The notes below the pieces were generated by a model that was not told where the DNA came from, ran no database searches, and saw only the letters and a program-made list of their open reading frames with translations. A DNA stretch of 64,000 nucleotides from Oscillatoriaceae cyanobacterium Prado104 (GTDB lineage Bacteria > Cyanobacteriota > Cyanobacteriia > Cyanobacteriales > Microcoleaceae). Where the stretch lies: contig JALOON010000076.1 in NCBI GenBank assembly GCA_025454405.1, forward strand, positions 1 through 64,000, written 5' to 3'. This document shows positions 2,868 to 55,162 of this stretch, piece by piece. The first letter of the stretch is position 1, and every line of letters begins with the position of its first letter. The position numbers and the translations under genes are program-made.

Positions 2868-3085
2868 TTAACAGTTGACAGTTGACAGTTGACACGAGGG
2901 AAGAAGGAAGAGTTGATAGTTGATAACCGGAAAGCGTTGGCGTAGCCTGCCCTGCGGGCATAGCCTCCGCCGAGAGCGGAATCGTTGACAGTTGACAGTT
3001 GACAGTAGTCATTACCAATCCCCAATTCCCAATCCCCAATCCCCAATTCCCAATTCCCAATCTAAAATCTAAAATCTCAAATCCC
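2868..3085 (+). repeat. Heptanucleotide repeat cluster
   Basis: The gap between zds and the next gene is filled with short tandem units of seven bases: GTTGACA (at 2873-2893 and again at 2983-3004) and CCCAATT/CCCAATC (about 3014-3060). Between them lies a GC-rich palindromic stretch (2934-2982, GGCGTAGCC … GGGCATAGCC). Such arrays recur in this window and are typical non-coding filler of these cyanobacteria. No promoter could be picked out. The upstream extension of the following reading frame into this array is an artefact of the repeats. Confidence 0.8.
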
Positions 3086-3532: not shown

Positions 3533-3779
3533 AGTTTGAGGACTCAAGTCCTGACTGCGAACAGGCTTGTAGTGAGGACTTCAGTCCTTAAATTTTTCAT
3601 TGTATAGCAACTTTGCCGGACGGTGCTGCAGGTTCTTAATCACTGAAAATATTACTGTGACAGCATTTCCCTTCTTCCTTCTTCCTTCTTCCTTCTTCCT
3701 TCGGCTGCAAGGCGCAAGTCGATCGCCCTTGCAGCTCACTATCATAGGAATATGCTGCTGATTCCTTCTCGGTTCAGTT
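3533..3779. repeat. Repeat-filled intergenic region
   Basis: Contains a short palindromic repeat of the GAGGACTTCAGTCCT type (3538-3553 and, as GTAGTGAGGACTTCAGTCC, 3571-3589) and a heptanucleotide CTTCTTC array at about 3669-3702. Members of the same GTAGTG…GGACTT family occur at 6212-6261, 12120-12142 and 14375-14393. No gene seen. Confidence 0.7.
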
Positions 3780-5777: not shown

Positions 5778-5838
5778 CCTTAGAGGCAGCGCGTGCTGTC
5801 AATTCTAGGAGTTCCGACCCAAAAATATATTTTTTTGC

Positions 5839-5867
5839 TTGACATTCGATCGAAGTTTGTGTTAGAT
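5839..5867 (+). promoter_or_regulatory. Sigma70-type promoter of tRNA-Val
   Basis: TTGACA at 5839-5844 and TTAGAT at 5862-5867 with exactly 17 bases between them. The predicted start point is a few bases before the tRNA at 5881. Confidence 0.65.
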
Positions 5868-5880
5868 TGAGTAACAGTGC

Positions 5881-5954
<74 letters not shown>

Positions 5955-6354: not shown

Positions 6355-7539
6355 TCAATTACCTGAATATTGCCTCGGGTTCGCTATTTTCAAAGCTTCA
6401 ACCAACTGCTGGATTTGTGCGGGTTCGTGAGTTGCCATCAGCGAGATCCGAATGCGACTGATACTAACAGTCGGAGGCCGCACGGCTGCTGCAAAAATAC
6501 CCATTTGTTTGAGTTGGCTGCCAACTGTTAATGCTGTCGCTGCATCCTTGAGGGGCAAACAGAAAATAGGAGAGATAGAATCGGTAATCGGTAATTGATA
6601 CTTGTGAATCGCGCAATCTTTGAAAGTGTGGATATTTTGCTGCAATCGAACTCGGCGAGTAGGTTCTTGCTTCACAATTTTGACAGCTTCTAAAGCAGCG
6701 GCTGTATCGGCAGGCGTCAATCCTGTAGTATAAATCCAAGTGGCGGCTCGATTGCGGAGAAAATCAATTAAAGCAGCATCGCCCGCAACGTAGCCGCCCA
6801 AACTGCCTAAAGCTTTGCTGAGGGTGCCAACTTGAATTAGGGGTTCTCCCGTACACCCGAAATGTTCGGCGCAACCGCCACCGCTAGCACCGAAAACTCC
6901 CGTAGCGTGAGCTTCATCTATTAATAGCATGCAGCTATATTGGCGCGCTAATGCTAACAGTTCGGGCAGCGGGCACAAGTCGCCGTCCATGCTGAAAACG
7001 CTATCAGTAATTATTAAACACTTGCGGTAGCGATCGCGGTTTTTCTCTAACTTCGCTGTTAAATCTGCGAGATTGCAGTGGCCGTACTCTATGACCGCTG
7101 CACCGCTGAGGATGGCTCCATTTTTGAGGCTCGAATGGTTGTACTTGTCCGATAATATCAGGTCGCGCGCGCCGGCGACAGAGCCGATCGCTCCTAAGTT
7201 TGCTAAATATCCCGAACTAAATACTAAAGCATCTGCGGTTTGTTTTAAATTAGCAATCGCTTGTTCTAGCTGCCGGTGCAACTCTCGGTGTCCGGTTAGC
7301 AACCTCGAACCCGTCGCACCCGTACCAAATTCTTTTGTTGCAGAAATAGCGGCTTGAATTAACCTGTCATCGCCCGCGAGTCCCAGATAATCGTTGCTGG
7401 CAAAATTGATTAGCTGGCTGCCTGCTAATTGTACCGCAGGGCCCGGACAGTTGTCGATCGCAACGGGCGATCGATACCAATCTGCGCGGTGAATAGCAGC
7501 TAGAGATTTCTCTATCCAAGCGTAAGGGTCAGCATTCAT
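6355..7539 (-). CDS. bioF: 8-amino-7-oxononanoate synthase (biotin synthesis)
   Basis: PLP-dependent alpha-oxoamine synthase that condenses pimeloyl-(ACP/CoA) with alanine to give KAPA, the first ring-forming step of biotin synthesis. 394 residues, usual family length. Seen: [11 protein letters not shown] near the N-terminus, [27 protein letters not shown] for the PLP ring Asp region, and the PLP lysine in [13 protein letters not shown]. It stands alone on the minus strand; no other bio gene is in the window. Related enzymes (Kbl, HemA) share the fold, but the length and the SRLLTG segment fit BioF. Confidence 0.93.
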
Positions 7540-7624
7540 GGTGGAAAGCGATCGAGTAATACGTTATATTATGTTTTGATAAGTTCCCCTGCATCTGCCA
7601 AACATACATACATTTTGCAAACCT

Positions 7625-8560
7625 ATGTCAGACTCTAAAAAATATAGATTAGTCACCCGCAGCGATTTTGACGGTCTGGTCTGTGCCGTACTCTTGAAAG
7701 AACTAGACCTGATCGAAGAGATTAAGTTCGTTCATCCGAAAGATATGCAGGATGGAAAAATTGAAATAACAAATAACGATATTACCACAAACTTGCCTTA
7801 TGTTGATGGTGTTTATTTAGCTTTCGACCACCATTTCAGCGAAACTCTCCGGCATGAAAAAATCAAAAACAACCACATCATCGACCCCCATGCAGATTCG
7901 GCAGCTAGGGTGTTGTACAGGTATTACGGCGGCAAGCAAAAGTTTCCGCAAATTTCCGAAGCGATGATGGCTGCGGTCGATAAAGCTGACTCGGCTAAAT
8001 TTGCCAAAGAAGAGGTGTTGCATCCCGAAGCTTGGGTGCTGTTAAACTTCATCATGGATGCGAGAACTGGGTTGGGCAGGTTTAAGGACTTTACGGTTTC
8101 CAATTACCAGCTAATGATGGAGTTAATTGATTACTGTAAAAATCATTCGATCGATGAAATCTTGCAGCTTGATGATGTTAAAGAAAGAGTGGATCTTTAC
8201 TTCGAGCAAGAAGAGAAGTTTAAAGAGCAGATCGATCGCTGCAGCAAAGTTTACGGCAATTTAGTTGTTTTGGATTTGCGCGAGGAAGAAACAATTTATG
8301 CGGGTAATAGATTTGCTATTTATGCTTTGTTTCCCGATTGCAATATCTCGATTCACGCTCTTTGGGGGCTGAAGAAGCAAAATACTGTGTTTGCGGTGGG
8401 CAAGTCAATTTTCAACAAAACTTCTAAGACTAATATCGGTGAGTTGATGTTGCAATACGGCGGTGGCGGACACCGGAATGCGGGAACTTGTCAGATTGAA
8501 AATGACAAAGCTGATGGAGTTTTGCAAGAGTTGATCGCGCAAATTAATGCTGACGGTTAA
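7625..8560 (+). CDS. DHH-family phosphoesterase
   Basis: 311-residue DHH/DHHA1 phosphohydrolase. Seen: RSDFDGLVCA with D14 and D16 (motif I), FDHH near residue 68 (motif III, the family name), and the C-terminal DHHA1 signature GGGGHRNAGTCQ near residue 280. Such proteins cleave phosphoester or phosphoanhydride bonds in nano-RNA, cyclic dinucleotides, pAp or polyphosphate with Mn2+. The sequence does not say which; the short cyanobacterial form is usually annotated exopolyphosphatase-related. It diverges from bioF, 85 bases apart, so the promoters are likely back to back. Confidence 0.88.
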   Translation: MSDSKKYRLVTRSDFDGLVCAVLLKELDLIEEIKFVHPKDMQDGKIEITNNDITTNLPYVDGVYLAFDHHFSETLRHEKIKNNHIIDPHADSAARVLYRYYGGKQKFPQISEAMMAAVDKADSAKFAKEEVLHPEAWVLLNFIMDARTGLGRFKDFTVSNYQLMMELIDYCKNHSIDEILQLDDVKERVDLYFEQEEKFKEQIDRCSKVYGNLVVLDLREEETIYAGNRFAIYALFPDCNISIHALWGLKKQNTVFAVGKSIFNKTSKTNIGELMLQYGGGGHRNAGTCQIENDKADGVLQELIAQINADG

Positions 8561-10574: not shown

Positions 10575-11369
10575 ATGAATCAAAATTCTCATCCAAATTC
10601 TCATCCAAATTCTCTCCGCACCTTAGGAATCCCGCCGAACGCTTGGATGGTTGATGCCACAATTGCCGACATCACCCGCCCGCAACTCGACCCGCAAATC
10701 GTCACCCTAAAAACCGAAACAAAAACCCTGCATTTAGACTTAGCAAAAGCAGCAATGTTAGTGATAGATATGCAAAACGATTTCTGCCATGCCGATGGTT
10801 GGTTGGCGCACATCGGCGTGGATGTAACGCCTGCAAGAACGCCAATTAATCCCTTACAAAAATTGCTGCCAGAATTGCGATCGCGCGCAATTCCAATTAT
10901 TTGGATTAACTGGGGAAACCGCCCGGATTTGTTAAATATCGGTGCAGCTTGCCGCCACGTTTACAATCCTGCTGGTGACGGCGTAGGTTTGGGAGATCCG
11001 CTACCAAAAAACGGCGCGTCCGTACTGATGGCGGGAAGTTGGGCAGCAGCAGTTGTTGATGAATTGGAACAGAAACCCGAGGATATTTGCGTTGATAAAT
11101 ATCGGATGAGTGCCTTTTGGGATACTCCTTTAGATAGTATCTTACGGAATTTAGGAAAAACTACACTTTTCTTTGGAGGAGTTAACGCCGATCAGTGCGT
11201 AATGGCTACGCTGCAAGATGCTAATTTTTTAAATTACGACTGCATCTTAGTCACAGATTGTACGGCTACGACATCTCCAGAGTATTGCTGGCAAGCGACT
11301 CTTTACAATGTCAAACAATGTTTTGGATTTGTGTCGGATTCTCAAGCTATATTGGAAGCAATTAGTTGA
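10575..11369 (+). CDS. Isochorismatase-family cysteine hydrolase
   Basis: 264-residue alpha/beta hydrolase of the isochorismatase/nicotinamidase/ureidoacrylate amidohydrolase superfamily. The catalytic triad is visible: Asp in MLVIDMQNDFC (near 65), Lys in CVDKYRMSAFWDT (near 174), and Cys in NADQCVMATLQDA (near 207). The cis-peptide region GGVNADQC fits amidases of this superfamily. The N-terminus carries a short repeat (NSHPNSHPNS) from a 12-bp tandem duplication in the DNA. Most likely an amidase or carbamoyl hydrolase; the substrate is unknown. With the divergent amidohydrolase and the downstream cupin and CocE-like genes it suggests a small C-N bond hydrolysis pathway. Confidence 0.88.
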   Translation: MNQNSHPNSHPNSLRTLGIPPNAWMVDATIADITRPQLDPQIVTLKTETKTLHLDLAKAAMLVIDMQNDFCHADGWLAHIGVDVTPARTPINPLQKLLPELRSRAIPIIWINWGNRPDLLNIGAACRHVYNPAGDGVGLGDPLPKNGASVLMAGSWAAAVVDELEQKPEDICVDKYRMSAFWDTPLDSILRNLGKTTLFFGGVNADQCVMATLQDANFLNYDCILVTDCTATTSPEYCWQATLYNVKQCFGFVSDSQAILEAIS

Positions 11370-11652
11370 CAGAAGTCATTAGTCAGCAGTCAGTCATTAG
11401 GCATTAGAAATCAGCTTGGCAGGTCGGGCAGACTAATAACTTGAAATTCCCATTTTGGCAGCCAAAAATAACTAATTTCGCCTAATTCCACATCCAATTA
11501 GATAACTAGAGTCCTCTTCTTTCTTTCTTCTTCCCTCTTCCCTCTTCCAGATTCAGGTGGTAGGTTGTAGGTTTTAGGTTTGAGTCTTTTCCACTTATCA
11601 CCTACCACTTTCTTCCTTCTTCCCTCTTCCTTCTTCCTTCTTTAATAAAACT
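11370..11652. repeat. Intergenic simple-repeat region
   Basis: CAGTCATTAG-type short repeats at the start, then two CTTCTTC/CTCTTCC heptanucleotide arrays (about 11517-11550 and 11610-11643) flanking a GGTAGGTTGTAGGTTTTAGG tract. No gene seen. Confidence 0.7.
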
Positions 11653-12105
11653 ATGACAAATCACTGCATGATTCCCGTTGTCAAGTCTCCGAAAGACTAC
11701 CAAGTATTTCGCATCAGCCCGCACGATACGAATAGATTGGCGATCGTTTTCGATCCGGCGACAGCTAATCATTCACTAACAGTTTGCGTGGAAATTTTCG
11801 ATCCGGGCGGCAAAACTCCTCCCAACCGCCATCAAATGGCAGTTGAAATGTTTTTCGTGATTAAGGGAGAAGGGCGCGCAACTTGCGACGGCAAAACAGT
11901 TAATATTAAAGCGGGAGATAGTTTGTTAGTTCCTCCAACTGGCACTCACCTGATTGAAAATACGGCAAACGAACGATTGTATGCTTTGTGCATCATGGTG
12001 CCGAATGAGGATTTTGTGGAATTGATTCGCAGCGGAACTCCTGTTGAATTAGATGAGGAAGATCTGAGAGTTTTAGGGCGAGCGGATATCCTCGTACCTT
12101 GCTAG
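11653..12105 (+). CDS. Cupin-domain protein
   Basis: 150-residue single cupin. Cupin motif 1 is recognisable as PPNRHQMAVEMFFVIKGEGR and motif 2 as GDSLLVPPTGTHLIENT, with the usual His and Glu metal ligands mostly in place. Such small cupins are metal-binding isomerases, dioxygenases or sensors. It stands between a cysteine hydrolase and a CocE-like hydrolase on the same strand, 121 bases before the latter, so a shared metabolic context is likely. No signal peptide. Confidence 0.85.
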   Translation: MTNHCMIPVVKSPKDYQVFRISPHDTNRLAIVFDPATANHSLTVCVEIFDPGGKTPPNRHQMAVEMFFVIKGEGRATCDGKTVNIKAGDSLLVPPTGTHLIENTANERLYALCIMVPNEDFVELIRSGTPVELDEEDLRVLGRADILVPC

Positions 12106-12226
12106 TTTGCAGTCAGGTTCGTAGTAAGGACTTCAGTCCTTAAAGATAGGATTAAATTTCTTACTATTGATATCTTGCAATAAGATCGAGAAGACGAACT
12201 TTTTTATTGATTTTTTGAGATAATTT

Positions 12227-13855
12227 ATGTTCAAAATTTGCCCGAAAGAAACAGCATCAATGCTAACTAGAGACGGCGTTCGCCTGGACGCCGACATCTA
12301 CCGCCCCGATGCAGAGGGCGAATTTCCAGTATTATTAATGAGACAGCCTTATGGAAGATCGATCGCCTCTACAGTAGTCTACGCCCATCCCGCATGGTAT
12401 GCCAAACAGGGCTACATCGTCGCCATCCAAGACGTGCGGGGACGCGGTACTTCTGAAGGGAAATTTAAACTATTTATTAATGAAGTAGCAGACGGATTTG
12501 ATGCGGTAAATTGGGCGGCTAATTTGCCGGGAAGTAACGGCAAAGTCGGAATGTACGGCTTTTCTTACCAAGGCATGACTCAACTCTATGCAGCCTCTGC
12601 TAAACCCAGCGCTTTAACAACAATTTGTCCGGCAATGGTAGGCTGCGATTTGTATGCAGAATGGGCTTATGAAGGAGGGGCTTTTTGCTTGCAATCGAAT
12701 CTCGGCTGGGCAATTCAGCTAGCAGCGGAAACTGCTCGCTTAAAAGGCGATGTTTCAGCCTATCAATCCCTCTACGGAGCTTCGAGAAACCTGCCTCTAG
12801 GCGATACTATTCCCGCGCGTCCCGAGATTTTAAAACATTTGGCACCAGATTCATATTATCATGATTGGGTGGATAATTATCGACCGGGCGAGTATTGGAA
12901 AAATTTATCGCCAAATATCGAAAATTTAGATTTGCCAATGCTGCATATCGGGGGTTGGTTCGATACTTATTTACGGGGAACGATCGCACTTTACAAAACA
13001 ATGGTTTCTCGGAAAAATCACTTGCAGCATTTGATAGTTGGTCCTTGGACACATTTACCTTGGGGGCGAAAAATTGGCGCGATGGATTGCGGTTTGGCAG
13101 CTTCCAATCCGGTAGATGAGTTGCAAATTCGCTGGTTCGATCGATTCTTAAAAGGATTGGATTCGGCAATGTTTGACGGTCACCCGATTGCTTTATTCGA
13201 GATGGGTAGCAATGAATGGCGCAAATTTGATAAATGGCCCGATCGCGAGCGAAAATCCTATTTTTTAGCAACTAACGGACTGGCGTCTGTGAGAGAAGAT
13301 GCGGGTATTTTAACACATAATTGCCTGGATGTTTGTATTGAGGATATATTCGTACACGATCCTTGGCGGCCGGTGCCATCCTTAGGAGGACACGCGGCAT
13401 TTCCTGCAGGTTCGTTCGAGCGATCGACCGTTGATTGTCGCACCGACGTGTTAACATACACTTCTGCACCGCTAACAGCAGATTTGCACTTAGCTGGAGA
13501 GATAATTGTCGAAATATTCTGTACTGCGGATGCGCCGAGTTTTGATTTGTGCGCGATACTTTCTGAGATGAAAGATGGCAGCAGTGTTTGGAATTTTGCG
13601 CAAGGTTACGTGCGGGTAAATTCCGGCGAAAATCCTGTCAGAATTTTAGTGCAACCAACCTGCATGAAAATTGTCAAAGGTAATGCTTTGCGCCTGAGTT
13701 TGAGTGCCACTTGTTTTCCCGCTTGCGATGTCAATCCGGGAACAGGTGCGCCTGTCGGTGAAGCGCGGTTAATTGATGCTAAAATTGTGACGCTGACAGT
13801 CAGTTGCGGCGGGAATTATCCCTCTCAAATTTTGCTGCCACAAAACAAAGGTTAA
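12227..13855 (+). CDS. CocE/NonD-family alpha/beta hydrolase (X-Pro dipeptidyl-peptidase S15 type)
   Basis: 542-residue serine hydrolase. N-terminal alpha/beta-hydrolase domain: nucleophile Ser113 in YGFSYQG, Asp near 245 in GGWFDTYLRG, His276 in GPWTHLPWG. The C-terminal jelly-roll domain typical of CocE starts about residue 340 (FFLATNG-like strand, then TADLHLAGEIIVEIF). Family members hydrolyse acyl esters and amides (cocaine esterase, cephalosporin and glutaryl acylases, X-prolyl peptidases). No signal peptide, so cytoplasmic. Last gene of the hydrolase neighbourhood that starts at 8742; the substrate is unknown. Confidence 0.9.
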   Translation: MFKICPKETASMLTRDGVRLDADIYRPDAEGEFPVLLMRQPYGRSIASTVVYAHPAWYAKQGYIVAIQDVRGRGTSEGKFKLFINEVADGFDAVNWAANLPGSNGKVGMYGFSYQGMTQLYAASAKPSALTTICPAMVGCDLYAEWAYEGGAFCLQSNLGWAIQLAAETARLKGDVSAYQSLYGASRNLPLGDTIPARPEILKHLAPDSYYHDWVDNYRPGEYWKNLSPNIENLDLPMLHIGGWFDTYLRGTIALYKTMVSRKNHLQHLIVGPWTHLPWGRKIGAMDCGLAASNPVDELQIRWFDRFLKGLDSAMFDGHPIALFEMGSNEWRKFDKWPDRERKSYFLATNGLASVREDAGILTHNCLDVCIEDIFVHDPWRPVPSLGGHAAFPAGSFERSTVDCRTDVLTYTSAPLTADLHLAGEIIVEIFCTADAPSFDLCAILSEMKDGSSVWNFAQGYVRVNSGENPVRILVQPTCMKIVKGNALRLSLSATCFPACDVNPGTGAPVGEARLIDAKIVTLTVSCGGNYPSQILLPQNKG

Positions 13856-43277: not shown

Positions 43278-43649
43278 CTACTCAGGTTGCCACACGAGTT
43301 GAGAGCTTCTAGCCAGTAAACCAGCCAATCGTTCAGCCTCAGCTAGATTATCCTCTCGATCGGGCAACCCAACGATATTGGCATGGTCGATCGAATCGCG
43401 ATCGACATCCAAACCAATTTCCCGTATCGCCCCCGTCTGGAGACTTGCAACACCATAGCACTTTCTGAACGAACCCGCGCATTGTTCGGGCGAACAAACA
43501 CTGGCAATGTTGACAGACAACCCAGACTCATTGGTACGCGAAAAATAGGCATCTGGCTTCACCCGTCCGGTATCTTCATCAATCCACTGTTTGCGAAGTA
43601 ACGCTCTGTAAACGATCGTATCATCTGGCAGGGGTTCCCAATTGCTCAT
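43278..43649 (-). CDS. Hypothetical protein, second gene of an ATGA-coupled pair
   Basis: 123 residues from MSNWEPLPDDTIVYRALLRK. Conserved-looking features: YRALLRKQWIDEDTGRVKPDAYF, ESGLSVN, and a cysteine pair in CSPEQC. I do not know the family by name; similar proteins occur in many cyanobacteria. The start ATG at 43649 overlaps the stop of the upstream gene as ATGA, so the two are translationally coupled. A two-gene toxin-antitoxin arrangement is possible but not shown. Confidence 0.7.
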   Translation of the reverse strand: MSNWEPLPDDTIVYRALLRKQWIDEDTGRVKPDAYFSRTNESGLSVNIASVCSPEQCAGSFRKCYGVASLQTGAIREIGLDVDRDSIDHANIVGLPDREDNLAEAERLAGLLARSSQLVWQPE

Positions 43650-44038
43650 ACTCGATCGAACCACTCCAACCACCGAACCAGTACCGATATTGAAACATCT
43701 TCTTCAACCCCGTAAGACTCCCCCAATTCATGGTACAAATACGCGGGTTTCCCGACACTAGCCGGACAAACCAACCGCACCTCACACTCTGGCTGCAACT
43801 TTGTCCAAGTCAAGCGAATACCGCCCTCTTCATCCGTAGAAACCGAAGCTTTCGGAAAGCGATCGCCCATCCATTCATAGGCTTCTACCACTAACTCGAT
43901 CGCCATTTTAAACGCAGACTGACTCGGTTGCAAAATCCCATAGTCATCAGTTTCATCTTCCTCCAGCAAAGCAACCAGACGCTTGAGAGTAATTGTAATA
44001 TGGCTGGCCGGGGGTTTTATAGATTGAGCAACGCTCAT
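43646..44038 (-). CDS. Hypothetical protein, first gene of an ATGA-coupled pair
   Basis: 130 residues from the ATG at 44038 (MSVAQSIKPPASH). Acidic, with LKRLVALLEEDETDDYGIL, ELVVEAYEWMGDRFPKASV, and WTKLQPECEVRLVCP. No known domain recognised. Its gene was partly copied elsewhere: the 5' end and promoter (43985-44116) recur at 46616-46757, and its 3' end (43628-43682) recurs at 53412-53466. Partner of the 43278 gene through a 4-base overlap. Confidence 0.7.
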   Translation of the reverse strand: MSVAQSIKPPASHITITLKRLVALLEEDETDDYGILQPSQSAFKMAIELVVEAYEWMGDRFPKASVSTDEEGGIRLTWTKLQPECEVRLVCPASVGKPAYLYHELGESYGVEEDVSISVLVRWLEWFDRV

Positions 44039-44150
44039 CAAACTTGCTCCAAAATAGCCGACAATATAAATCTGCCTTTATTTTAACGTACAAAGAGTTA
44101 GAGAGGCAATCGCCCATCTATTCATAAGCTTCCACCACAAACTCGATCGA

Positions 44151-44520: not shown

Positions 44521-46404
44521 TCAAAGCTTCTCAAACGCCGTCCACGTTCTACCAAACTCTTCAAGTTTTGGATTAGAACAGACAACAGTTAGATAGCTTC
44601 CTTCTGTGTGTCGTTTTAGCCGACTCATTGCAACATAAGCAGACTCGAGATCTGTATCTTCAGAAATAGCAATAACCATATAGCGAGCTTCCCATCCTTT
44701 AAAACTATGGATTGTACAAGCTTTGATTCGAGCATCACCCATAAAAAATGCCATCTTCCGGCTCTTCTTTTCTTGTTGATCTGCATCAAAGATATGGATG
44801 ACATTGAAGTTTTTTTCATTAAGAAGTGATACACAGGCTAACCCAAATTTGTGAGTTGGAAGCAAAAGAACAATATCTGGGTAAGCAATAACATTTGGAG
44901 CAGCTAAACCAGGCATTTTGAGCGCAGCACTGACGCACTCCTTCGCTATTGACTGAAAAGAGCTAAGTTGTATCCAACTAAGATGAGTAGGATATAAATC
45001 TAATTCAGATACTTGTGCTGTTGGCAAGTTAAGTTTCAAGTCAGGCAAGTATCGTTTTGCAAAGTCCCTCAAGTATTTAATAAGCGAATGAGGCATTCGG
45101 TAGCATCTTTCTAGTTGGACCCAAGGACCGCTAAAGCCTGCACCATTCATAGCATCTTCCGTCCAACTCCTAGCTCGTTCATAGAGATCTTGAGTTTCAT
45201 CGGCAACTAGTACCATTTCACCACTTGATTTTAGGACTCGTCGCAGCGTGTTCCACCAGATAGGGTTGTAGTCCTGTCCTTCATCAACCAAAATGGCATC
45301 ATATTTGGTAATTTGTGCTCCTGCGATGTCAATCGCCTGATTAGTTAACTGAACAATCTCGATTTCTAGTACTTCAGAAATATCTGGATTCCCTTGCCAA
45401 AGCCCATTGTATTCATTATTTAGACCTGCCTCACTACAGATGACTTGCTTGCACCATTCATGAAAATGGAGCCATGTAATGTAGCGATTAATCGTTTTAC
45501 CTGGGAGTGGATACCGAACTGCTAAATCTCGGAGATAATGCCATAACGTAATGTTGAATGAAACTACTAAGGTGTCTTTATGTTCAATTGATAACTGAGC
45601 GGCTCTTGCTGCCAATACCAATGATTTACCGGAGCCAGCAGCACCGCGAATACGACGATACCCAGATCTGGTGCGACTTATTGCCAGTTGCCGTTGTTTA
45701 GGATTAAGCTCTAGAGGTTGCCGCTGAGTAGCGGAAAAGTCTGGCTCAACTAACCAACCTCGCAAAGATGTAGCAAGTTCAGGCTCCATAAATTTAGAAG
45801 CGCGCCATCGACTTGCAGTAGGAAAAACAGTTTCTAGGTCATTTAACAAAAGCGCATCACACCCTGCCAGTGGGTGGTAAGGTTTGGCTTTCCCAAGGAG
45901 GTTCCGCGTTTGGTAGAAAGGAAAAAACAACTCTTCTAGAGTTTTAGTATCTGCGGTTGTTACAATCACTCCAGCAGTGATTAAAGAAAGATAGGCAGTG
46001 GATCGATCGGTGCAATTATTATTGATTTGTGGACAGTATAAATTAGCAATACTATTTTTATAGATGAGAACCTTTTCAACTGGATTATCTTTGATCCGAA
46101 AGGCCTTTCCATCTCTCGATGTCGCCCACAATTCTGGGTCATTGGATTCAGTTGATGAGTACCTTACGTAATAAGGTAGTGCCGTTAAATCCCAGTCCTT
46201 AACCTCAAAAACAGCAATGCCAACCTTCGGATTTAATAGGACGAAATCTGGACGTAAGCCATTCAGATGGGGCTGAATATAGATCTCCCAATCTTCTGAA
46301 AGATTTTGATTAAAAAACTCAAAGACTCTTTTCTCCCCTACCGTTAGAGGAGTTCTGAGGGTGTCTAGTTCATGCTCCGAAGGTGAAACAAATCGATTGG
46401 TCAT
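44521..46404 (-). CDS. NERD-domain nuclease fused to UvrD/Rep-type (SF1) helicase
   Basis: 627 residues. N-terminal NERD domain (about 18-130), a PD-(D/E)xK-like nuclease: GEKRVF, D53 in RPDFVLL, E67 and K69 in VFEVKDW. Helicase: Walker A GAAGSGKS near 257, Walker B DEGQD near 374, CYRMPHSL (motif IV region), TIHSFKGWEA near 566 (motif V) and VAMSRLKRH (motif VI). Such fusions act on DNA and are frequent in defence and mobile regions. It lies downstream of the HEPN/ATPase pair on the same strand after 500 bases of mosaic sequence. GTTAGAT four bases before its ATG and the attC-like site after its stop give it the look of a gene cassette. Confidence 0.87.
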   Translation of the reverse strand: MTNRFVSPSEHELDTLRTPLTVGEKRVFEFFNQNLSEDWEIYIQPHLNGLRPDFVLLNPKVGIAVFEVKDWDLTALPYYVRYSSTESNDPELWATSRDGKAFRIKDNPVEKVLIYKNSIANLYCPQINNNCTDRSTAYLSLITAGVIVTTADTKTLEELFFPFYQTRNLLGKAKPYHPLAGCDALLLNDLETVFPTASRWRASKFMEPELATSLRGWLVEPDFSATQRQPLELNPKQRQLAISRTRSGYRRIRGAAGSGKSLVLAARAAQLSIEHKDTLVVSFNITLWHYLRDLAVRYPLPGKTINRYITWLHFHEWCKQVICSEAGLNNEYNGLWQGNPDISEVLEIEIVQLTNQAIDIAGAQITKYDAILVDEGQDYNPIWWNTLRRVLKSSGEMVLVADETQDLYERARSWTEDAMNGAGFSGPWVQLERCYRMPHSLIKYLRDFAKRYLPDLKLNLPTAQVSELDLYPTHLSWIQLSSFQSIAKECVSAALKMPGLAAPNVIAYPDIVLLLPTHKFGLACVSLLNEKNFNVIHIFDADQQEKKSRKMAFFMGDARIKACTIHSFKGWEARYMVIAISEDTDLESAYVAMSRLKRHTEGSYLTVVCSNPKLEEFGRTWTAFEKL

Positions 46405-46415: not shown

Positions 46416-46851
46416 ATTGCCCAGATGGATGTTCAACTAAATCTTATAACTGTATTGCCGTTGCGATACAATATATGATATTGCCTAAGACTACCGCAGA
46501 TCCCTCCTGTATGTCAACCTCTTCTTACTCTCCTTCAGAATCTCCATCGAAACCGCAGATTTTGGAAAGCGAATCAGTTTTTTAGGAAACTAATAATGCA
46601 GCAACCGTTTCATTTGAGGGTAATTGTAATATGGCTAGCCGGAGGTTTTATAGATTGAGCAACGCTCATCAAACTTGCTCCAAAATAGTTGACAATGTAA
46701 ATATGTGTAAATATGTATTTATTTTAACGTACAAAGAGTTAGAGAGGTGATCGCCCAATTCTCTAGCCAGGAGTTTAGAAGGTCGATTGCTGCTTGATTT
46801 TTCCTTGCTTGTTCGGGATTGATAACAGATGAGGCAACCGCCCGCACTAAC

Positions 46852-46904: not shown

Positions 46905-48428
46905 TCAAAGCTCTAAATATTTATTAATGCGTTGAAGAATCTCTTTACAATAGCCTTCAGCTATCTGTCTTTCATAATCAGAAATAACATCATCTCGATT
47001 GTGAGCAAGAGGATTTCTGACCTTCGATACCACTTGAGAACGTTGATCCCAGTAAGCTTTATCTTTACCAAAAATGGGTTGAAATATTTGCCATTCCTTC
47101 AATACTATTGCGAAAAGATCTTGCGGATAAGTAAAGTCTAGAGGGTTTTGTGATGCCCTATCACGCCAAGTTTTTATTTCTCTTTCCTGAGATTCACGAC
47201 ATTTCTGAAAAAGATTTTTTCCACTTTGTTTATCCATGCAGAGATTAGGATGGCTCTTTTCAAGCTTGCCAAACCAATCGCTACCATACTTATTTTGTAA
47301 TGTTGATGTCAGTAAAATCCTAAGATTTTTCTCTGTATCTCTCCACACACTCCATAAATCAGTTTCTCGTTCTATCAAGCTTAAAAATGAGTGGAAGTGT
47401 TCCGAAAATGCTGTATAAGTGCTTTGCTTACTCAGCCTAATAAATCCATATCTTAAAAACTCATCAACATCTGTTTGCTTAACATCAATTACTGGACCAA
47501 ATAGTATTTGTAGCAACTTTCCAAGATTTCCATCCTCTTGAAGAAGATAGACAATAGAGTCGTAGTGATTTACAAAAGATCGTTCAATTTTTTGGAAAGC
47601 AAGATTAACATTAACTTGCTGCTGCTCGCGAAACATTTCTACGATTTCATAGCCCAACATTTCCAATAGATAAGGATGCTTCCCGCAGTAAAATTCTATT
47701 TCATCGATAATTTCAACAGTGATGCACAGCCCAACTGAACTAAGACGATTGGCAAAAGCTTGAAAGTCTTCATCATCGAACATTGCTAGATAATGCTTAT
47801 GAAAAATTCCATCCAATGTAGAAATAGCCTGTGATTGTAGCTCAATTTCGCGGATAGTACGTCGTGAAGTAGTTATAAAAGTGACTCTCCACTCTGGACG
47901 ATATGACAATTCACGTAACCCTTGAAAGCCAGAGATGTCGCCTTTAAAGAGGAATCGAGCATGATCGAACTCATCTAATATGAAAAGTACACGAATATTA
48001 CTCTGACGAATCTTTTCAAAAAATCTTTGGATACGAGAGTAGCCTTCACTCCAAGAGGCTTCATCCTGTAGAGCGTGATTAGCCGCACATTGAATTGTTT
48101 CAGTCACCCAATTTAAGTCTTCCAATTCATCAATACATCTTGTGATCAAGGACTTGAAGAATATTGGAGGCTGGTCATAGGTTGCTAAGTTAATCCATAT
48201 TGGTAAGAGCCTTTTAGAAATAAGCACTGGCTTGCTTTCGATTACAGCTTTATATGTTAAGCTGCTTTTGCCAATACGAGGATCGCCAATGATTGCAAGG
48301 TTTCCTGGTTCTTGTGGACGTGTGACTCTATTTGCAATTACTCGCAAACTATCTTTACGCCCAATGAAACGATTCCCAGTGACAATATTGCCATAATCAG
48401 CAAACGGATTTTCAATCTCAAGATTCAT
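46905..48428 (-). CDS. AAA/STAND-like ATPase with C-terminal HEPN (Swt1-like) domain
   Basis: 507 residues from the ATG at 48428. Begins ENPFADYGNIV…FIGRKDSL, then Walker A GDPRIGKSS (48-56), Walker B LFILDEFDHA near 168, sensor-like TFITTSRR near 193, and a lid/winged-helix region to about 370. The C-terminus (about 380-507) is a helical domain with RNPLAH (R471, H476), the R-x4-H signature of HEPN ribonucleases/toxins, in the context seen in Swt1-like HEPN domains. Inference: the ATPase gates an RNase effector. It starts seven bases after the stop of the 1613-aa gene, whose ATPase has the same ENPYAAY lead-in, so the pair is one operon of related sensors. Confidence 0.83.
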   Translation of the reverse strand: MNLEIENPFADYGNIVTGNRFIGRKDSLRVIANRVTRPQEPGNLAIIGDPRIGKSSLTYKAVIESKPVLISKRLLPIWINLATYDQPPIFFKSLITRCIDELEDLNWVTETIQCAANHALQDEASWSEGYSRIQRFFEKIRQSNIRVLFILDEFDHARFLFKGDISGFQGLRELSYRPEWRVTFITTSRRTIREIELQSQAISTLDGIFHKHYLAMFDDEDFQAFANRLSSVGLCITVEIIDEIEFYCGKHPYLLEMLGYEIVEMFREQQQVNVNLAFQKIERSFVNHYDSIVYLLQEDGNLGKLLQILFGPVIDVKQTDVDEFLRYGFIRLSKQSTYTAFSEHFHSFLSLIERETDLWSVWRDTEKNLRILLTSTLQNKYGSDWFGKLEKSHPNLCMDKQSGKNLFQKCRESQEREIKTWRDRASQNPLDFTYPQDLFAIVLKEWQIFQPIFGKDKAYWDQRSQVVSKVRNPLAHNRDDVISDYERQIAEGYCKEILQRINKYLEL

Positions 48429-48435
48429 GACATTC

Positions 48436-51400
48436 CTATTGTGGATGGGCAATTAACCATTCCTTAAACAACTCAACTCGCATACGGTAATAGTTTTCTT
48501 GTTCTTGTCTTATTACTTCTCGATTTTCGAGGTCTCTTAAAATCTCATCAATAGGTATCTGGGTTTCACATACAATGCTATGACGACTACATGCGCCAGT
48601 GCGACTATTTTCAGCTATGGACGCTAAAACTTTCCTGGCATCTTCATCTGAGATAGCATCTGCTGAAGTATCTCCAGAACTAATTAAATTATCAAACTTA
48701 TCAATACTTAAAGCATTAACCCCTTGAATTAACTCGAATTTGACTTGCTCAACATCTGACTTTGTAACTAGCTTCGCTCGCTTACGATTCATATACTCAA
48801 CTAAGCGGTTACAAAGAATCTGAATATAAAATGGACTTCCAGCAGTTAACTCAACAATTCTATCGATAGCTTTCTCCACATAACGACTCTTTCCCTGCTT
48901 ACCACCAATCCGAATTGGTTCATCAATCAGTTTAATAGCATCTTCATTTTTAAGATAACTAACTCGTTCATCCTGAATAATTCCAAATTCATTAGGGAAT
49001 CTCTGCTTGAATTTTGGCATAACATCCTGCCCCACAAGTACGGCACTAAAAAAGTTTTCTTGTAGTAATGCTTTCCAATTTCTCATGAATTCTTCAGGAA
49101 CTTTACCACTCAAAATTTGACTATAAATGTAAGAAAATTCGTCTATCAAAAGTACGACTCTGACCTTCTTCCAATCATCTGCTTTAGCTATATTTCTTTT
49201 GAATCGCTCAAAAATATCCTTAAAGAGAGTTAATGTGCTAGGATGTTTATAAAATTCATAATCAGTCGGAAAATTTATAGATACTAACCCATAGCCCTCA
49301 TCTAATTTATCTTCAATAGCATACTCAAGTTTTTTGATAATGCTCCACAAAATTTGGTATAACAAAGGCGTAGAAGAATATTCATCTAATATTGAGCCTA
49401 TATTCCCTATATCTAAAATAAGTAAATTCTTATCCTGTTGCAGTTCAAGTTTAAGATGATGAAGGATGGAAGATTTTCCAGAACGTTTTTGTCCAAATAT
49501 AACTAAGCACTTGTTTTGAGAATGAGAATTCTGGATGGTGCGAGCAGTATTACTAATTAGCTCATTACGTCCATAAAACATATCCTTATTTTCAACAATA
49601 GCTGATTCAGCATAGGCAGCGTAAGGGTTTTCAATTTCTTCAAACTGCTCTTCAGAATAGAGACGAATGGAGAAATTGGCTATTTGTGTTTGAACTATAT
49701 TTTCTGCACGTGTCCGATACTGAGCATAAATCGGTAAAGAAAATGTCTCTGATTTTACTGCCTCTTCAGTTAATCGTATAGGTATAGTTAAAATATCTTG
49801 AGAACCCCCGCGTAAAGGGCAATCCAGCATAATCTCATTACGAGTAACTGTGAAAAATTCATTATCTTCTTCCACAATTAGTTCTAATGATTCCGCTGGG
49901 CTACAACCCATTCTATTTTCAACAACAATTTGCACTTCTATAATTTGATTTGCATCATGTGAATATGAATCAAACCCTTCAGCTAAACGAAGTGTCAATT
50001 GGGGTACGGAACTTTCATATATTTCTTGAAGTTTTATATTTGCCTTATTTTGAAGTGACTCAAGAATAGGGTAGATGCTCTCAACAGAAAATTTTGTTGG
50101 TCCATTTTCAATTTCTTTCAACAGATTTCTGCAACGAGTATCTATCTGATCGCAATAACGTTCCTTTTCCTCAAAAGTACTTTGCTTACACAAATCGTAT
50201 GCAATCTCTAACACTTTTTGCAATTCTCTAATGCGCTGCTGATCGATATTAAATAAGAGATTTGCTTCTATTCCTTTTATCCTTGTGATTCTATCCTCTA
50301 AGGAGGATATCGTAAGATCTGCCTTAGCAATAAAGCTCATTTCCGTAGAGATGTTGCGCGTCTCTTCAGATTTTTTGCGCTGCAACTCCTTCCACTTCTG
50401 TAGAAAGTCATCACGATCGATCGCACCGCTCCTCGCTAGTTCAAGCTTATTCTCTAAATATTCAAGAGCTATAGCTTGAAAAGTAGCCTTTGCATATAAT
50501 CTAGTTAAGATACGATTTGCAGCAAACTTACTTCTATTAATTAGATAGGCAACTACATCAAATAGCTGCTCTCGATTTGGATGTCTATTTAATATATCTT
50601 CTAAAGTTTCATCGATCGAAGGAATTTTATTGCTGGTAGGAATGTTGATATGACCAAGTGTTGATGCTAAAAATCTAATAATTGAATTTATTGCATCCTG
50701 CTCATCTCGACCAGTACTTCTATACCCATCATATACGCTCAAAGCCTCACAATAACAATCACGCGCAATATCCAATGAGCTATTTTCTATAACGGCTGCA
50801 TCACCTCTTGAAGCAAAACTACGGCAAAGATACTTATGGAATTGGTTTGGATCATCCCATTCCTCAATTAGAGAAATAATTTTAGCTGCTGATAAATAGT
50901 AGCCGGATCTCTCTCTAGGTCGATAGGTTCTGGATTCTGTTGCAAGCTTCTCTAATTTATCAACATCTGAGCGATCAAATTTCTGCTCTTGCAAGCGAAC
51001 AGGAGGCACACCCTGAAACTCACATTTTTCTAGGAAAAATTTTGTAAATTCACTAACTTCATTTGAGAAGCCAGACAAAAAGGTTTCTACAAGAATTTCA
51101 TCAACCTGAGCAGCCTGACCAATTTTCTTTGCTTCTGTTATGGCTGCCAATAACTCAGCAGCTTGTGTGTCCGCTGAATGTGCCAAAATCTTGTTCAAAA
51201 TTGCTTCAGCACCATCATAATGCTCCTGTTTAATTAAGCAGAAAGCAATATTGATTTGAGTATTTTCTACCCCTAATTTTTCAATAGCCCTGAATTCCGA
51301 TTCAGCACTTTGATAATCGCCTTGCTTTAAATAGCAGCTAGCAATTGACCTTAAAAACTGGGTTTTTATTTCCTTGTTAGAAGAATTTGCAGCTTTTCGT

Positions 51401-53277
51401 TTTAGCAAATCAATCGCTTTTTCGTATTGATTTGCTTTCTGATAGATATTAATTAACAAGTTATCTACAGTTTGAGGATTCGTGATCTTGTTGCGATTTT
51501 GGTCTAACAGTTTAATAGCTTCTTCTGTTTGACCGATTTGAACTAAAAGCTGTGCCAAGTCTTTAATAGCGCTCTCTACATTATCCCCCTGTTTAATCGC
51601 TAATCGAAGTAATTGAGCCGCTCTTTCAGGATCTCGTTCTATAAGCTGGATACGTTTAGCCCGAGCATATGTATTGGTTCCCCTAGGAACACCTATCGCG
51701 CGAGCGTATTCCCGCCATTTCTCATGAAATTGTTGAGCCTTTGGATAATCTACATTGATAGCTAGTACTTTTCTAATCTGAGAAATTGCTTTTGCATATT
51801 CACCATCATTTGCATACTGAGTTGCCAAACTAAATAATTCATTAATAGTTCTATGTAGCGAAATTCCAATTGCTAAAGGACCTTTTGATCCTTGTGCAGA
51901 CTCAAATATTACCGGTATCCTTTCAGATACTTGTATTTTGTTGATTCTGCTGTGCAATTCTTCATCAATCACAGCACTTCTATGGAAGAAGTATTCCACA
52001 CCATCTGATCCACGAATGAATCCAAAACTACGTTGAGGAGTATATATGTAGATATGGCCACGAGGTTGATTCACCAGAGTATCATCACTTTGAGTCTTAT
52101 TCTTATTACTGGTAGAGCTAAAGTCTCGTAGCACTTTTTGATAGGCATCGCTTAACTCTCCAGAAAAGTACTTAAGTCCTTCCTGAACTAGCAATTTCAA
52201 AGATGAATCCTGTGACCATTGGCGTACTAAATCTGTAGCTAAGTCAATCCTGTCTGTTAACTTCAGTAGATATATTTCCGTTTCGAGTAAGATTTGATAT
52301 TCAATTTCAGATAGTTCATGTTCATTGCTTCCAGCGATTAGTTGCAACAAAGAAAAATCACCTGATGATCTTAGAATGCCAACATATACATACCAAGCAT
52401 TTTGGTTTTGTTCGGAATACAAACCTGCTTTTATAAAGAATTGGCTCAATGCATAACAAGCCAAGCTATCATCACCAACTTCTCTCGCAGTAACAGCCAG
52501 ATTATACCAGTCTTCTTTTCTCTTGGAGAGAATTGCGGATTTGGTATAATGCTTAAGAGCTTCTTTCTTATTTCCTGAAATTAACTCTAGAAAACCCAAG
52601 TGATTTTTTATGCTTGGTGAGGCATTAAACCACTCATTTAAAAGCTTGAAATCTAATGCTATGGCAGGTAATCTACCAAATTTAATTCCTAACTCATTAT
52701 TTTTAATAGCATTTTCATATTTATTTTTTGCTCTTATCCATATTTTATTAGCTTCTTGCTGTCGATTACCTTTTAATTCTTCTTTAGGGAACTCAAAACT
52801 AGGAGAAAATAAGTCAATTTTTGACATTTTAATACTTGCATCAAAACGTGCCTCAATCTCAACTAATCTTTTAAATATTTCTGGATTAAAATTATTTAAT
52901 GGAGATGTTATAGTTGATACTCTGGCATTCTTATCATCTATATTTGAATCTTCTTGATTGGAATTAAAACTTTTTACTTCAGCAGTCTCCAAATTTTTAG
53001 AAGCTTCATCCTTTAGCTCTTGCTCTTGTCTTGTGGAGACTTCAGAGACATGTGAATCGCAGGGAACTGCACCCTTTAGCTCCTGCTCTTCTCCACTAGG
53101 TACTTCCCAAAAATCTATTCTTTCTATAGGTAGTTTAGAAATGCCTGTTTCAGTTTCAATTGCAACATGATCGCGACCTATTTCGGTAAGTATCCCTGAA
53201 ATCTCGCGTCCACTAGTTAGAATAAATTTTACTTTGCCACCAAGAGGTACTTGCTGCTGTATTAGCTGTGAAAGCAT
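48436..53277 (-). CDS. Giant Sm-like / cold-shock-like / TPR / AAA-ATPase protein
   Basis: 1613 residues, ATG at 53277. Order: Sm-like beta barrel (1-65, VKFILTSGREISGILTEIG); disordered linker (70-130); helical repeats (150-390); a cold-shock/OB-like domain about 404-470 (SFGFIRGSDGVEYFFHRSAV); TPRs about 475-760 (LATQYANDGEYAKAISQIRK, IASCYLKQGDYQSAESEFR); helical region and coiled coil to about 1100; beta-sandwich about 1110-1210; AAA ATPase about 1225-1500 with ENPYAAYAES, Walker A GQKRSGKSS near 1262 and Walker B VVLLIDEFSYIY near 1374; winged helix at the end. Two putative RNA-binding modules on an ATPase suggest a sensor of RNA or translation state. No nuclease motif seen. First gene of an operon with the HEPN ATPase. 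Confidence 0.82.
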   Translation of the reverse strand: MLSQLIQQQVPLGGKVKFILTSGREISGILTEIGRDHVAIETETGISKLPIERIDFWEVPSGEEQELKGAVPCDSHVSEVSTRQEQELKDEASKNLETAEVKSFNSNQEDSNIDDKNARVSTITSPLNNFNPEIFKRLVEIEARFDASIKMSKIDLFSPSFEFPKEELKGNRQQEANKIWIRAKNKYENAIKNNELGIKFGRLPAIALDFKLLNEWFNASPSIKNHLGFLELISGNKKEALKHYTKSAILSKRKEDWYNLAVTAREVGDDSLACYALSQFFIKAGLYSEQNQNAWYVYVGILRSSGDFSLLQLIAGSNEHELSEIEYQILLETEIYLLKLTDRIDLATDLVRQWSQDSSLKLLVQEGLKYFSGELSDAYQKVLRDFSSTSNKNKTQSDDTLVNQPRGHIYIYTPQRSFGFIRGSDGVEYFFHRSAVIDEELHSRINKIQVSERIPVIFESAQGSKGPLAIGISLHRTINELFSLATQYANDGEYAKAISQIRKVLAINVDYPKAQQFHEKWREYARAIGVPRGTNTYARAKRIQLIERDPERAAQLLRLAIKQGDNVESAIKDLAQLLVQIGQTEEAIKLLDQNRNKITNPQTVDNLLINIYQKANQYEKAIDLLKRKAANSSNKEIKTQFLRSIASCYLKQGDYQSAESEFRAIEKLGVENTQINIAFCLIKQEHYDGAEAILNKILAHSADTQAAELLAAITEAKKIGQAAQVDEILVETFLSGFSNEVSEFTKFFLEKCEFQGVPPVRLQEQKFDRSDVDKLEKLATESRTYRPRERSGYYLSAAKIISLIEEWDDPNQFHKYLCRSFASRGDAAVIENSSLDIARDCYCEALSVYDGYRSTGRDEQDAINSIIRFLASTLGHINIPTSNKIPSIDETLEDILNRHPNREQLFDVVAYLINRSKFAANRILTRLYAKATFQAIALEYLENKLELARSGAIDRDDFLQKWKELQRKKSEETRNISTEMSFIAKADLTISSLEDRITRIKGIEANLLFNIDQQRIRELQKVLEIAYDLCKQSTFEEKERYCDQIDTRCRNLLKEIENGPTKFSVESIYPILESLQNKANIKLQEIYESSVPQLTLRLAEGFDSYSHDANQIIEVQIVVENRMGCSPAESLELIVEEDNEFFTVTRNEIMLDCPLRGGSQDILTIPIRLTEEAVKSETFSLPIYAQYRTRAENIVQTQIANFSIRLYSEEQFEEIENPYAAYAESAIVENKDMFYGRNELISNTARTIQNSHSQNKCLVIFGQKRSGKSSILHHLKLELQQDKNLLILDIGNIGSILDEYSSTPLLYQILWSIIKKLEYAIEDKLDEGYGLVSINFPTDYEFYKHPSTLTLFKDIFERFKRNIAKADDWKKVRVVLLIDEFSYIYSQILSGKVPEEFMRNWKALLQENFFSAVLVGQDVMPKFKQRFPNEFGIIQDERVSYLKNEDAIKLIDEPIRIGGKQGKSRYVEKAIDRIVELTAGSPFYIQILCNRLVEYMNRKRAKLVTKSDVEQVKFELIQGVNALSIDKFDNLISSGDTSADAISDEDARKVLASIAENSRTGACSRHSIVCETQIPIDEILRDLENREVIRQEQENYYRMRVELFKEWLIAHPQ

Positions 53278-53377
53278 TGTGAATAAAAGATTTAATTTAT
53301 ATGGCTATGTACAACCAGTGCCTGATATTGCCTAAGATTACCGCAGATCGCTCCTGTATGTCAACCTCTTCTTACTC

Positions 53378-53722
53378 TCATTCAGAATCTCCTTTTCTCG
53401 ATCTAGTTCGGCTGGCAAGGGTTCCCAATTGCTCATACTCGATCGAACCACTCCAACCACCGAACCAGCAAGGCATATCCACACCCAAATACATGAGATT
53501 GGCGTAAGTGACCGCCCGAATTTCTACAATTATCTCGCCCTTCAATTCTAGCTCAGGGCGACCGGTGCGACTCGCAAGCAGATATAGCTCAACCTGTTGA
53601 TGAAGCCAGTCCCTAGCGCTTTCTGTATCCAGAGCTAATCCATCCAAACTGAGGAGTTCCCCATAGATTTCGAGCGCCATCGTCTGGTTTGTTGCTACAT
53701 CTAAATGCAGCAACCGTTTCAT
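53378..53722 (-). CDS. Hypothetical protein, possibly chimeric
   Basis: 114 residues. The front (MKRLLHLDVATNQTMALEIY … LELKGEIIVEIRAVTYANLM) looks like a real small protein with repeated Glu-rich strands. The last 30 codons lie in the 55-base block shared with 43628-43682, read there in another frame, so the C-terminus was probably replaced by a rearrangement. Its start overlaps the end of the dead DUF2283 gene. Expression uncertain. Confidence 0.45.
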   Translation of the reverse strand: MKRLLHLDVATNQTMALEIYGELLSLDGLALDTESARDWLHQQVELYLLASRTGRPELELKGEIIVEIRAVTYANLMYLGVDMPCWFGGWSGSIEYEQLGTLASRTRSRKGDSE

Positions 53723-53885: not shown

Positions 53886-54132
53886 ATCTAGACCTCCTGC
53901 CGGGATAAAGGGTGATGATTAAGATGAAAATATTGAATTCTCGGTAAACAACTCGAAGCACTAAATTTTCATCTCAACGCCTCTGTGCGATCGGTTTATC
54001 ATCTTCTCCGGTTTCTAGCCGATCGGGCGATCGTACTGTCTCTATTACAAGATTGCGATTGATGGGAATTTAATGACTGGCTAAAATTTCCATTTTTAAT
54101 TGAACACGATCGCTAAAACGAATTTCTTTCAT
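53886..54132 (-). pseudogene. DUF4258 family gene with two nonsense codons
   Basis: ATG at 54132: MKEIRFSDRVQLKMEILASH, stop, IPINRNLVIETVRSPDRLET … IAQRR, stop, DENLVLRVVYREFN … TLYPGRR. Matches the DUF4258 (RelE-like fold, toxin-like) family. It directly precedes the DUF2283 gene, the common gene order for this pair. A second, more decayed copy is at 54941-55162. Confidence 0.72.
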
Positions 54133-54195: not shown

Positions 54196-54504
54196 TTATT
54201 GATAAACTATAATTACTAACTGTTGTAAGTTTTGGGAAAATAATTCTTCGAGTTCAGTGTTTTTAATATTTCCTGTCGCCACCATGAGTAGCTTATAAGG
54301 CTGCTGTTGAAGCAAAAATGACTCAACAAAATCAGCATCTTTTGTGATGACACTCCGCTGCTCCTGGATAGAAACCTGGTTGATGAATACGTCGGGTGTT
54401 GCATTCTGCTGCGGTAGATCGCGAGTGTGCAAGGTGTCATAGCCTTCGGATTGCAGAAACCGAGCCAGTCGCACGGGCAGTTGAGCATCTACAAGAAACT
54501 TCAT
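54196..54504 (-). CDS. DUF5615 PIN-like toxin
   Basis: 102 residues: MKFLVDAQLPVRLARFLQSE with the first PIN Asp (D6), TRDLPQQNATPD, and VITKDADFVES with further acidic residues. DUF5615 is a Mut7-C/PIN-like RNase family commonly paired with DUF433. Its ATG overlaps the DUF433 stop by four bases (54501-54504). Complete and probably functional; the predicted role is an RNA-cleaving toxin neutralised by its partner. Confidence 0.85.
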   Translation of the reverse strand: MKFLVDAQLPVRLARFLQSEGYDTLHTRDLPQQNATPDVFINQVSIQEQRSVITKDADFVESFLLQQQPYKLLMVATGNIKNTELEELFSQNLQQLVIIVYQ

Positions 54505-54737: not shown

Positions 54738-54940
54738 AAGTTGTCTCCTCCGTGTATGAAATAACAGATATATCTATGCTCTAAACTGTTGTGTGACGCG
54801 ATCGCAACCTGTCCTTACTGTAACCAAAATCGGATCGCAATAATATATTGTACAACAGTATGTAGCAAAAGAGCATCATGCCAAATGCCGAATCATGAGT
54901 CTTGTTATACAAGGATTTCACTATACTAATCTAGATTCTT

Positions 54941-55162
54941 AGAACTCCTGCTGGGATAAAGGGTAATGATTGAGATGAAAGTATTGAATTTTCGGCAAAC
55001 AACTCGAAGCACTAAATTTTCATCTTATCATCTTCTCCGGTTTCTAGCCGATCGGGCGATCGTACTGTCTCTATTACAAGATTGCGATCGACGGGAATTT
55101 CATGACTGGCTAAAATCTCCATTTTTAATTGAGTACGATCGAATCAAGCGAATTTATTTCAT
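54941..55162 (-). pseudogene. Second, more decayed DUF4258 copy
   Basis: About 85% identical by eye to 53886-54132: same start region (ATGAAATAAATTCG, now with an early TAA), an AGCCAGTCATGAAATTCCCG block, and a deletion of about 20 bases after GAAGATGATAA. The open frame on the plus strand here is only its antisense. Confidence 0.72.

Follow-up and report, generated by a model that had tools for sequence, protein, structure and literature searches.

Fusions of a Swt1-like HEPN domain with a STAND-type ATPase, TPRs and an S1 domain are listed in Table 1 of PMC3710099 (Npun_F6454, MED222_16016, and Desac_1927), so the ingredients of the system described here are already in print. The system is a pair of adjacent genes in a 64,000-nucleotide stretch of DNA from Oscillatoriaceae cyanobacterium Prado104 (assembly GCA_025454405.1, contig JALOON010000076.1, positions 1 to 64,000; hereafter the window), which is part of a 71 kb contig in a genome of 8.5 Mb. 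The large gene encodes a protein of 1613 amino acids with a predicted Hfq-like Sm barrel at its N-terminus and an ATPase module at its C-terminus, and the small gene encodes a protein of 507 amino acids in which a related ATPase module is followed by a predicted HEPN domain. The pairing of the genes and the exchange of effectors among their relatives lead to the reading favored here, to which we assign a probability of about 55%, that the two genes form a conflict system made of an RNA sensor, twin ATPases, and a HEPN RNase. The published fusions share with the pair a Swt1-like HEPN, a STAND-type ATPase, TPRs, and an OB-fold RNA-binding domain. The window pair differs from the fusions, as they are described in that table, in being split over two genes, in having an Hfq-like barrel and a second ATPase homologous to the first, and in the exchange of its effectors; a direct relation between them is nevertheless possible.

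Three other described groups of systems resemble the pair in part. The EAD-coupled nucleoside triphosphate (NTP)-dependent conflict systems outlined in PMC7159879 also combine a constant NTPase core with variable effectors, and in Okeania a relative of the large gene has two EAD1-trypsin genes downstream of it, one with the ATPase module of the large protein as well. CoCoNuTs, which are type IV restriction systems, have cold-shock domains, a beta-sandwich, a HEPN effector, and predicted RNA targeting in common with the pair, however, in the account given in PMC11090510 they are built on a McrB-type GTPase and McrC. The DUF499-centered BREX-related (BR) and Hma systems share an ORC/STAND-type ATPase and, in many members, HEPN, but as presented in PMC12839542 their HEPN is N-terminal on DUF499 and they include a methylase and a helicase. 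All three were rejected as identities for the window pair. Neither protein has a Pfam match to EAD, vWA, MoxR, or a GTPase, to a McrB-type GTPase or McrC, or to DUF499 (for the large protein, among the best 25 of 30 Pfam families), and EAD1 was found only in the Okeania neighbors.

Comparison with PADLOC, NCBIfam, and Pfam matched no named system beyond single domains, in agreement with the original prediction, which had been made from the sequence without database searches. The PADLOC candidate PDC-M34B matches the HEPN region of the small protein (E 1.6e-9, with 21 of 23 members of the family at E ≤ 1e-3); its models of 147–192 positions cover this region only and are silent on the ATPases and the sensor. 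Mad8 of MADS, a system that is a set of eight mad genes, matches the ATPase region alone (E 3.6e-7), and none of the other mad models matched any of the three window proteins that were scanned. A pair of genes on a plasmid of Acinetobacter ursingii (locus L097) has the same twin-ATPase order as the window pair, however, its sensor is an N6-methylase with a specificity region and no domain was assigned to the C-terminus of its small protein. A search of the open literature, at the level of titles and abstract openings and with subscription papers and bioRxiv largely outside its range, found no description of a two-gene system of a Sm/TPR-ATPase and an ATPase-HEPN protein. What appears to be new is therefore the two-gene, twin-ATPase, Hfq-like version, which the comparisons below leave well supported as a system.

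Both genes are on the reverse strand and both open reading frames (ORFs) start with ATG. The large gene occupies positions 48436–53277 and the small gene, which is located 3' of it, occupies positions 46905–48428. The stop codon of the large gene ends at 48436 and the ATG of the small gene is at 48428, leaving exactly 7 nucleotides between them (48429–48435); the median gap in 26 relatives is 11 nucleotides. The lengths and the spacing given in the original prediction were confirmed, and the strand, which it had not stated, is now added. A TTG at 48452 is also open as an alternative start of the small gene and would give a protein of 515 amino acids.

ATPase module 1 comprises residues 1212–1613 of the large protein (48439–49644) and features the Walker A motif GQKRSGKSS and the Walker B motif LLIDEF. 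The Pfam family AAA_22 is matched in the large protein with 29.1 bits, which passes the cut-off of 27, and nSTAND1 with 26.4 bits, slightly short of its cut-off of 27.1. Module 2 comprises residues 1–356 of the small protein (47361–48428) and also has both Walker motifs. A fold search of the whole small protein matched residues 1–356 only, that is, the ATPase part, with an ORC/Cdc6/CED-4-type fold. Profile comparison of the two modules with hhalign gave a probability of 97.3% and an E value of 1.9e-11, and the alignment starts at the lead-in NPYAAY/NPFADY. This lead-in, with the GR that follows it, had been read as the mark of duplicated modules, and it proves to be part of a real homology. 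The view that the two ATPases are homologous, duplicated modules thus stands as the best account of the profiles, and it is through this homology with module 2 that module 1 is assigned to the STAND/ORC-type ATPases. The Walker motifs are conserved in both proteins. A putative winged helix in both modules is indicated solely by the fold match that extends to residue 356 of the small protein. Related ATPases were also seen outside this family. Eight cyanobacterial loci (L062–L066, L068, L071, and L079) have operons of a gene for an ATPase of about 360 amino acids and a gene for an 800-amino-acid ATPase that by eye has multiple membrane passes; both genes are related to the window ATPases and some copies are broken, and together they look like a twin-ATPase family bound to the membrane. 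One further cyanobacterial locus (L078, 228–7231) has five consecutive ORFs of 370–642 amino acids, most with ATPase motifs by eye.

The C-terminal domain of the small protein (residues 358–507; 46908–47357) is a candidate Swt1-like HEPN domain, as had been proposed from its RNPLAH motif. HEPN_Swt1 matches the window protein with an E value of 7e-5 and 23.5 bits, short of the curated cut-off of 27.5. Of 23 family members, 20 have this match at E ≤ 1e-3, with a best value of 1.2e-9, and the relative P0009 is over the curated cut-off. HEPN domains feature an Rx4-6H motif in which the Arg is followed by a polar residue, accompanied in many families by Ex3[KR], according to the rules set out in PMC3710099. 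RNPLAH fits as an Rx4H motif (R471–H476; 47001–47018), and its position, where the helix 457–475 ends and the loop leading to the last helix (484–506) starts, agrees with the placement given there, the helices not being numbered by superposition. The Ex3[KR]-like E366-x3-R370 is invariant in 23 members. A profile of the HEPN region compared with the PDB gave 2nrk (named GrpB) as the best match (E 0.0043), and none of the four matches was recognizable as HEPN. Taken by its motifs and family matches, the domain behaves as HEPN.

The Arg and His of the motif are retained in 30 of 32 rows of the alignment, the exceptions being a copy from Oscillatoria (ATSLAQ) and the partner at locus L106. The Oscillatoria copy is otherwise intact, and inactive HEPN domains are known (PMC3710099), which would suit a HEPN domain that is a non-catalytic RNA-binding part, with the output elsewhere, for example in ATPase-driven remodeling. 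This explanation is very unlikely given the retention of both residues in nearly all rows and two members that have SLFN_AlbA_2 instead of HEPN, the Schlafen family being among the RNase effectors named in PMC12839542.

The large protein is arranged as a Sm barrel, a helical/TPR region, a cold-shock domain (CSD), TPRs, a helical region, a putative beta-sandwich, and the ATPase with its putative C-terminal winged helix. A structure model and a fold search both find an N-terminal helix and a five-stranded barrel in residues 1–60 (53098–53277), and the best PDB match of the N-terminal profile is the Lsm protein 6tfl (E 0.0018). At the level of sequence the signature of the barrel at E ≤ 1 is mixed, with LSM in 3 of 24 members (best 3.7e-5), the RimP C-terminal SH3 in 12 of 24, and other small barrels too. 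That the protein begins with an Hfq-like Sm barrel is confirmed by the predicted structure. The CSD, an OB-fold domain that is optional in the family, is located at residues 406–473 (51859–52062; Pfam CSD E 5.2e-4, PADLOC CSD_V 1.2e-4); its Pfam match of 20.3 bits in the window protein is under the curated cut-off of 27, and the match in the Oscillatoria relative, with 27.7 bits, is barely over it. By eye the large protein of this relative (L118, SIO1A7) has two cold-shock domains. The TPR superhelix spans approximately residues 480–735 (51073–51840) and is matched over the cut-off by TPR_19 (1.2e-13) and others. The putative beta-sandwich, at approximately residues 1085–1210 (49648–50025), is a block conserved in 21 aligned sequences. 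A profile of this block found no relative in the PDB, the best match being bL9 at E 0.61, and comparison with the Acinetobacter protein gave a weak stretch only (probability 2%). The architecture in the original prediction is thus borne out for the Sm barrel, the TPRs, and the ATPase, is less firm for the CSD, and for the beta-sandwich and winged helix is left with a conserved block and a fold match in the other protein.

Genome contigs of 84,980 species were scanned for patterns from an alignment of the large protein, which gave loci in many phyla. The scan uses exact patterns, so the 35 loci found are a lower bound, and it used the large protein alone, so that adjacency of the partner was not built in. 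A relative of the small gene is directly downstream on the same strand at 30 of the 35 loci; in four of them it is split (L104, L107, L116, and L117), in L106 it is without the HEPN region, and L104 and L107 have a broken large gene as well. At a further locus, from Methanoregula (L125), the two genes are fused in a single frame of 1802 amino acids. The remaining four are a Trichodesmium locus with a broken partner on the opposite strand (L127), the Okeania locus with no small-gene partner downstream (L126), one with a different ATPase gene downstream (L132), and one where the large gene runs off the end of the contig (L131). Pairwise identities of the two proteins co-vary (Mantel r 0.937 for 22 pairs, with none of 2000 permutations as high), a correlation driven in part by shared host descent. 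This test omitted 10 of the 32 partner rows, five that are split or short (L104, L106, L107, L116, and L117) and five whose large protein is outside the alignment (L113, L119, L120, L122, and G659). A scan of genome contigs for close relatives of the small protein alone, with narrow peptide patterns, found nothing. The two genes form a unit. With the genes co-conserved, the C-terminal domain behaving as HEPN, and no named system matched, none of the three outcomes that the original prediction held would overturn it was found.

The two-gene operon and its close co-inheritance would also be expected of a toxin-antitoxin-like pair, in which HEPN toxins are common (PMC3710099) and in which the large protein would chiefly restrain a HEPN toxin that is freed by its loss or by an attack on it. 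The restraining partner would in this case be an elaborate ATPase of roughly 1200–1800 residues, and the Walker motifs, being conserved in the two proteins, speak for an active switch. The effector exchange described below is compatible with a sensor as well, and a toxin-antitoxin role is quite unlikely.

The distribution of the pair is very patchy. With E ≤ 1e-5 as the limit, the small protein has matches in 1 of the 29 genomes in the genus and in 5 of the 61 in the family, one of the latter (G430) through the ATPase of the large protein. In the order, the Planktothrix protein has matches at E ≤ 1e-10 in 8 of 388 genomes, fragments included. Four of these copies are near full length without a stop (G255, G659, G000, and G487), three are broken or fragmentary (G433, G157, and G649), and one matches through its ATPase only (G571). 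Some copies appear under two labels and are not independent, namely G255 and L128 (Planktothrix rubescens), G487 and L118 (Oscillatoria), G430 and L126 (Okeania), and G433 and L127 (Trichodesmium). The window protein is 62% identical to a relative from Anaerolineae vs 42% to the one from Planktothrix, and in the tree the cyanobacterial label needs two changes, with none of 200 bootstrap trees having one. The cyanobacterial copies are of more than one origin. Broken copies are seen in L104, L107, L116, L117, G157, and G433; in metagenome-assembled genomes some of these breaks may be assembly errors. The pattern suggests that the pair moves and decays. A housekeeping role in RNA surveillance, in which the pair would degrade damaged or stalled RNA as a stress response and not as immunity, would account for the Sm, CSD, and TPR domains, which are typical of RNA metabolism, and for several loci whose neighbors by eye are ordinary genes of metabolism or housekeeping (Poribacteria L111, L115, and L116). 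It is an unlikely explanation in view of the patchiness, the multiple origins, the broken copies, and the exchanged effectors.

The effector exchange is seen in the Methanoregula fusion, which ends in SLFN_AlbA_2 in place of HEPN (33.6 bits vs a Pfam cut-off of 25.3). SLFN_AlbA_2 also ends the ATPase gene downstream of the L132 relative (47.4 bits, over the cut-off). PMC12839542 lists RNases of both kinds, HEPN and Schlafen, as back-up effectors in other systems. The sensor side also varies on plasmids, where the large protein has two partial matches, in Acinetobacter ursingii and Methanomethylovorans. In the former (L097) the N6-methylase ends in a module-1-like ATPase (hhalign E 5.2e-21), and its gene overlaps a gene for a module-2-like protein (hhalign E 1.2e-13) that has matches in 3 plasmid records, all from A. 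ursingii and including its own. In the latter (L096, 7962–9392) a 476-amino-acid protein matches residues 15–466 of the large protein (E 2e-10) and has no ATPase; it matches PADLOC CSD_V (5.1e-7) and, below threshold, Hfq (E 0.004). The gene of this protein has csa3 nearby, and a TPR gene and helicase genes are located downstream of it. These few cases suggest an exchange of sensors in addition to that of effectors. A broader reading, which is tentative and has less than an even chance, is that a twin-ATPase chassis, consisting of a sensor with ATPase 1 and of ATPase 2 with an effector, is a new class of prokaryotic immunity into which both ends plug. The sensors would be Hfq-like Sm, TPR, and CSD proteins for RNA or the N6-methylase with its specificity region for DNA, and the effectors HEPN, the Schlafen AlbA_2 domain, or EAD1-recruited trypsin.

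In the two-gene conflict system proposed here, the large protein would be the sensor and would use its Hfq-like Sm barrel and TPR helices, often together with a CSD, to engage RNA that is foreign or damaged, or a complex of RNA and protein. Module 1 would pair with the related module 2, which in the resting state would hold the HEPN domain apart or masked. Engagement of the sensor would lead to an ATP-driven assembly of modules 1 and 2 that joins HEPN domains as a working endoRNase. The RNase may cut cellular and invader RNA, perhaps tRNA, and so stop phage replication, arrest growth, or lead to abortive infection. An RNA-sensing, ATP-gated, anti-phage pair was also the original prediction, of which the pairing, the HEPN domain, and the module duplication now have evidence of their own and the rest stays conditional.

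Several observations weigh against the proposed conflict system. The CSD is dispensable, as no more than 30 residues are present at its position in 13 of 30 aligned rows, so RNA sensing leans mainly on the Sm barrel, a fold common to other small barrels. The winged-helix and beta-sandwich assignments are weak. The small protein of the Oscillatoria relative (L118; 13270–14790) has lost both the Arg and the His with the rest intact, and the partner in L106 has no HEPN region. The profile of module 2 matches P0018 with a probability of only 31%, so L132 is taken as no more than a distant variant. The Mantel correlation is subject to the host descent noted above. The small protein has no match in phage or plasmid protein records, and among viral contigs searched with its alignment 80 stretches fit the pattern and none encodes a relative. 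No consistent neighborhood of defense genes was seen in 21 loci, which were read by eye without a control.

Directly beyond the pair in the window is a NERD nuclease-UvrD helicase gene (44521–46404, reverse strand; PADLOC C3a187 2.6e-133, Pfam NERD and UvrD), and none was noticed adjoining the pair at the other loci inspected by eye. Direct repeats frame the region of the pair and this gene, one of 70 nucleotides (46476–46545 and 53323–53392, 96%) and one of 57 nucleotides (43625–43681 and 53412–53468, 98%), and short stretches related to such repeats are present in many genomes of the genus. Among the matches listed in a check of the genus for an empty site, the two flanks resemble other genomes only in pieces that are short or divergent, some of which all 29 genomes have, so that no clean insertion site can be read. 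A 92-nucleotide repeat (43983–44074 and 46614–46705, 92%) over the start of the small ORF 43646–44041 is a duplicated gene fragment. Two further pairs of direct repeats (92% and 95%), at 53889–54112 and 54940–55141, flank a DUF5615 PIN-like gene (54196–54504). Elsewhere, in L103 a sulfatase-like ORF is present twice with equal length and ends (2601–4022 and 6476–7897) around an AAA_21 and DUF3226 gene pair (4159–5886), and in L130 an AAA_15 and DUF3226/Toprim pair (10588–12296) follows the system.

With this pair the STAND and HEPN world would gain an unnamed, widely scattered system that has the sensor and the effector on separate homologous ATPases. The separate ATPases would make sensing, switching, and cutting separable through single Walker-motif mutations, and the natural fusion and the exchange of HEPN and Schlafen domains provide ready comparisons. 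If the Hfq-like barrel is the sensor, it would be a handle on how bacteria distinguish foreign RNA from their own, and if the twin-ATPase chassis is real, the Hfq fold would be a built-in detector of non-self RNA within an NLR-like switch.

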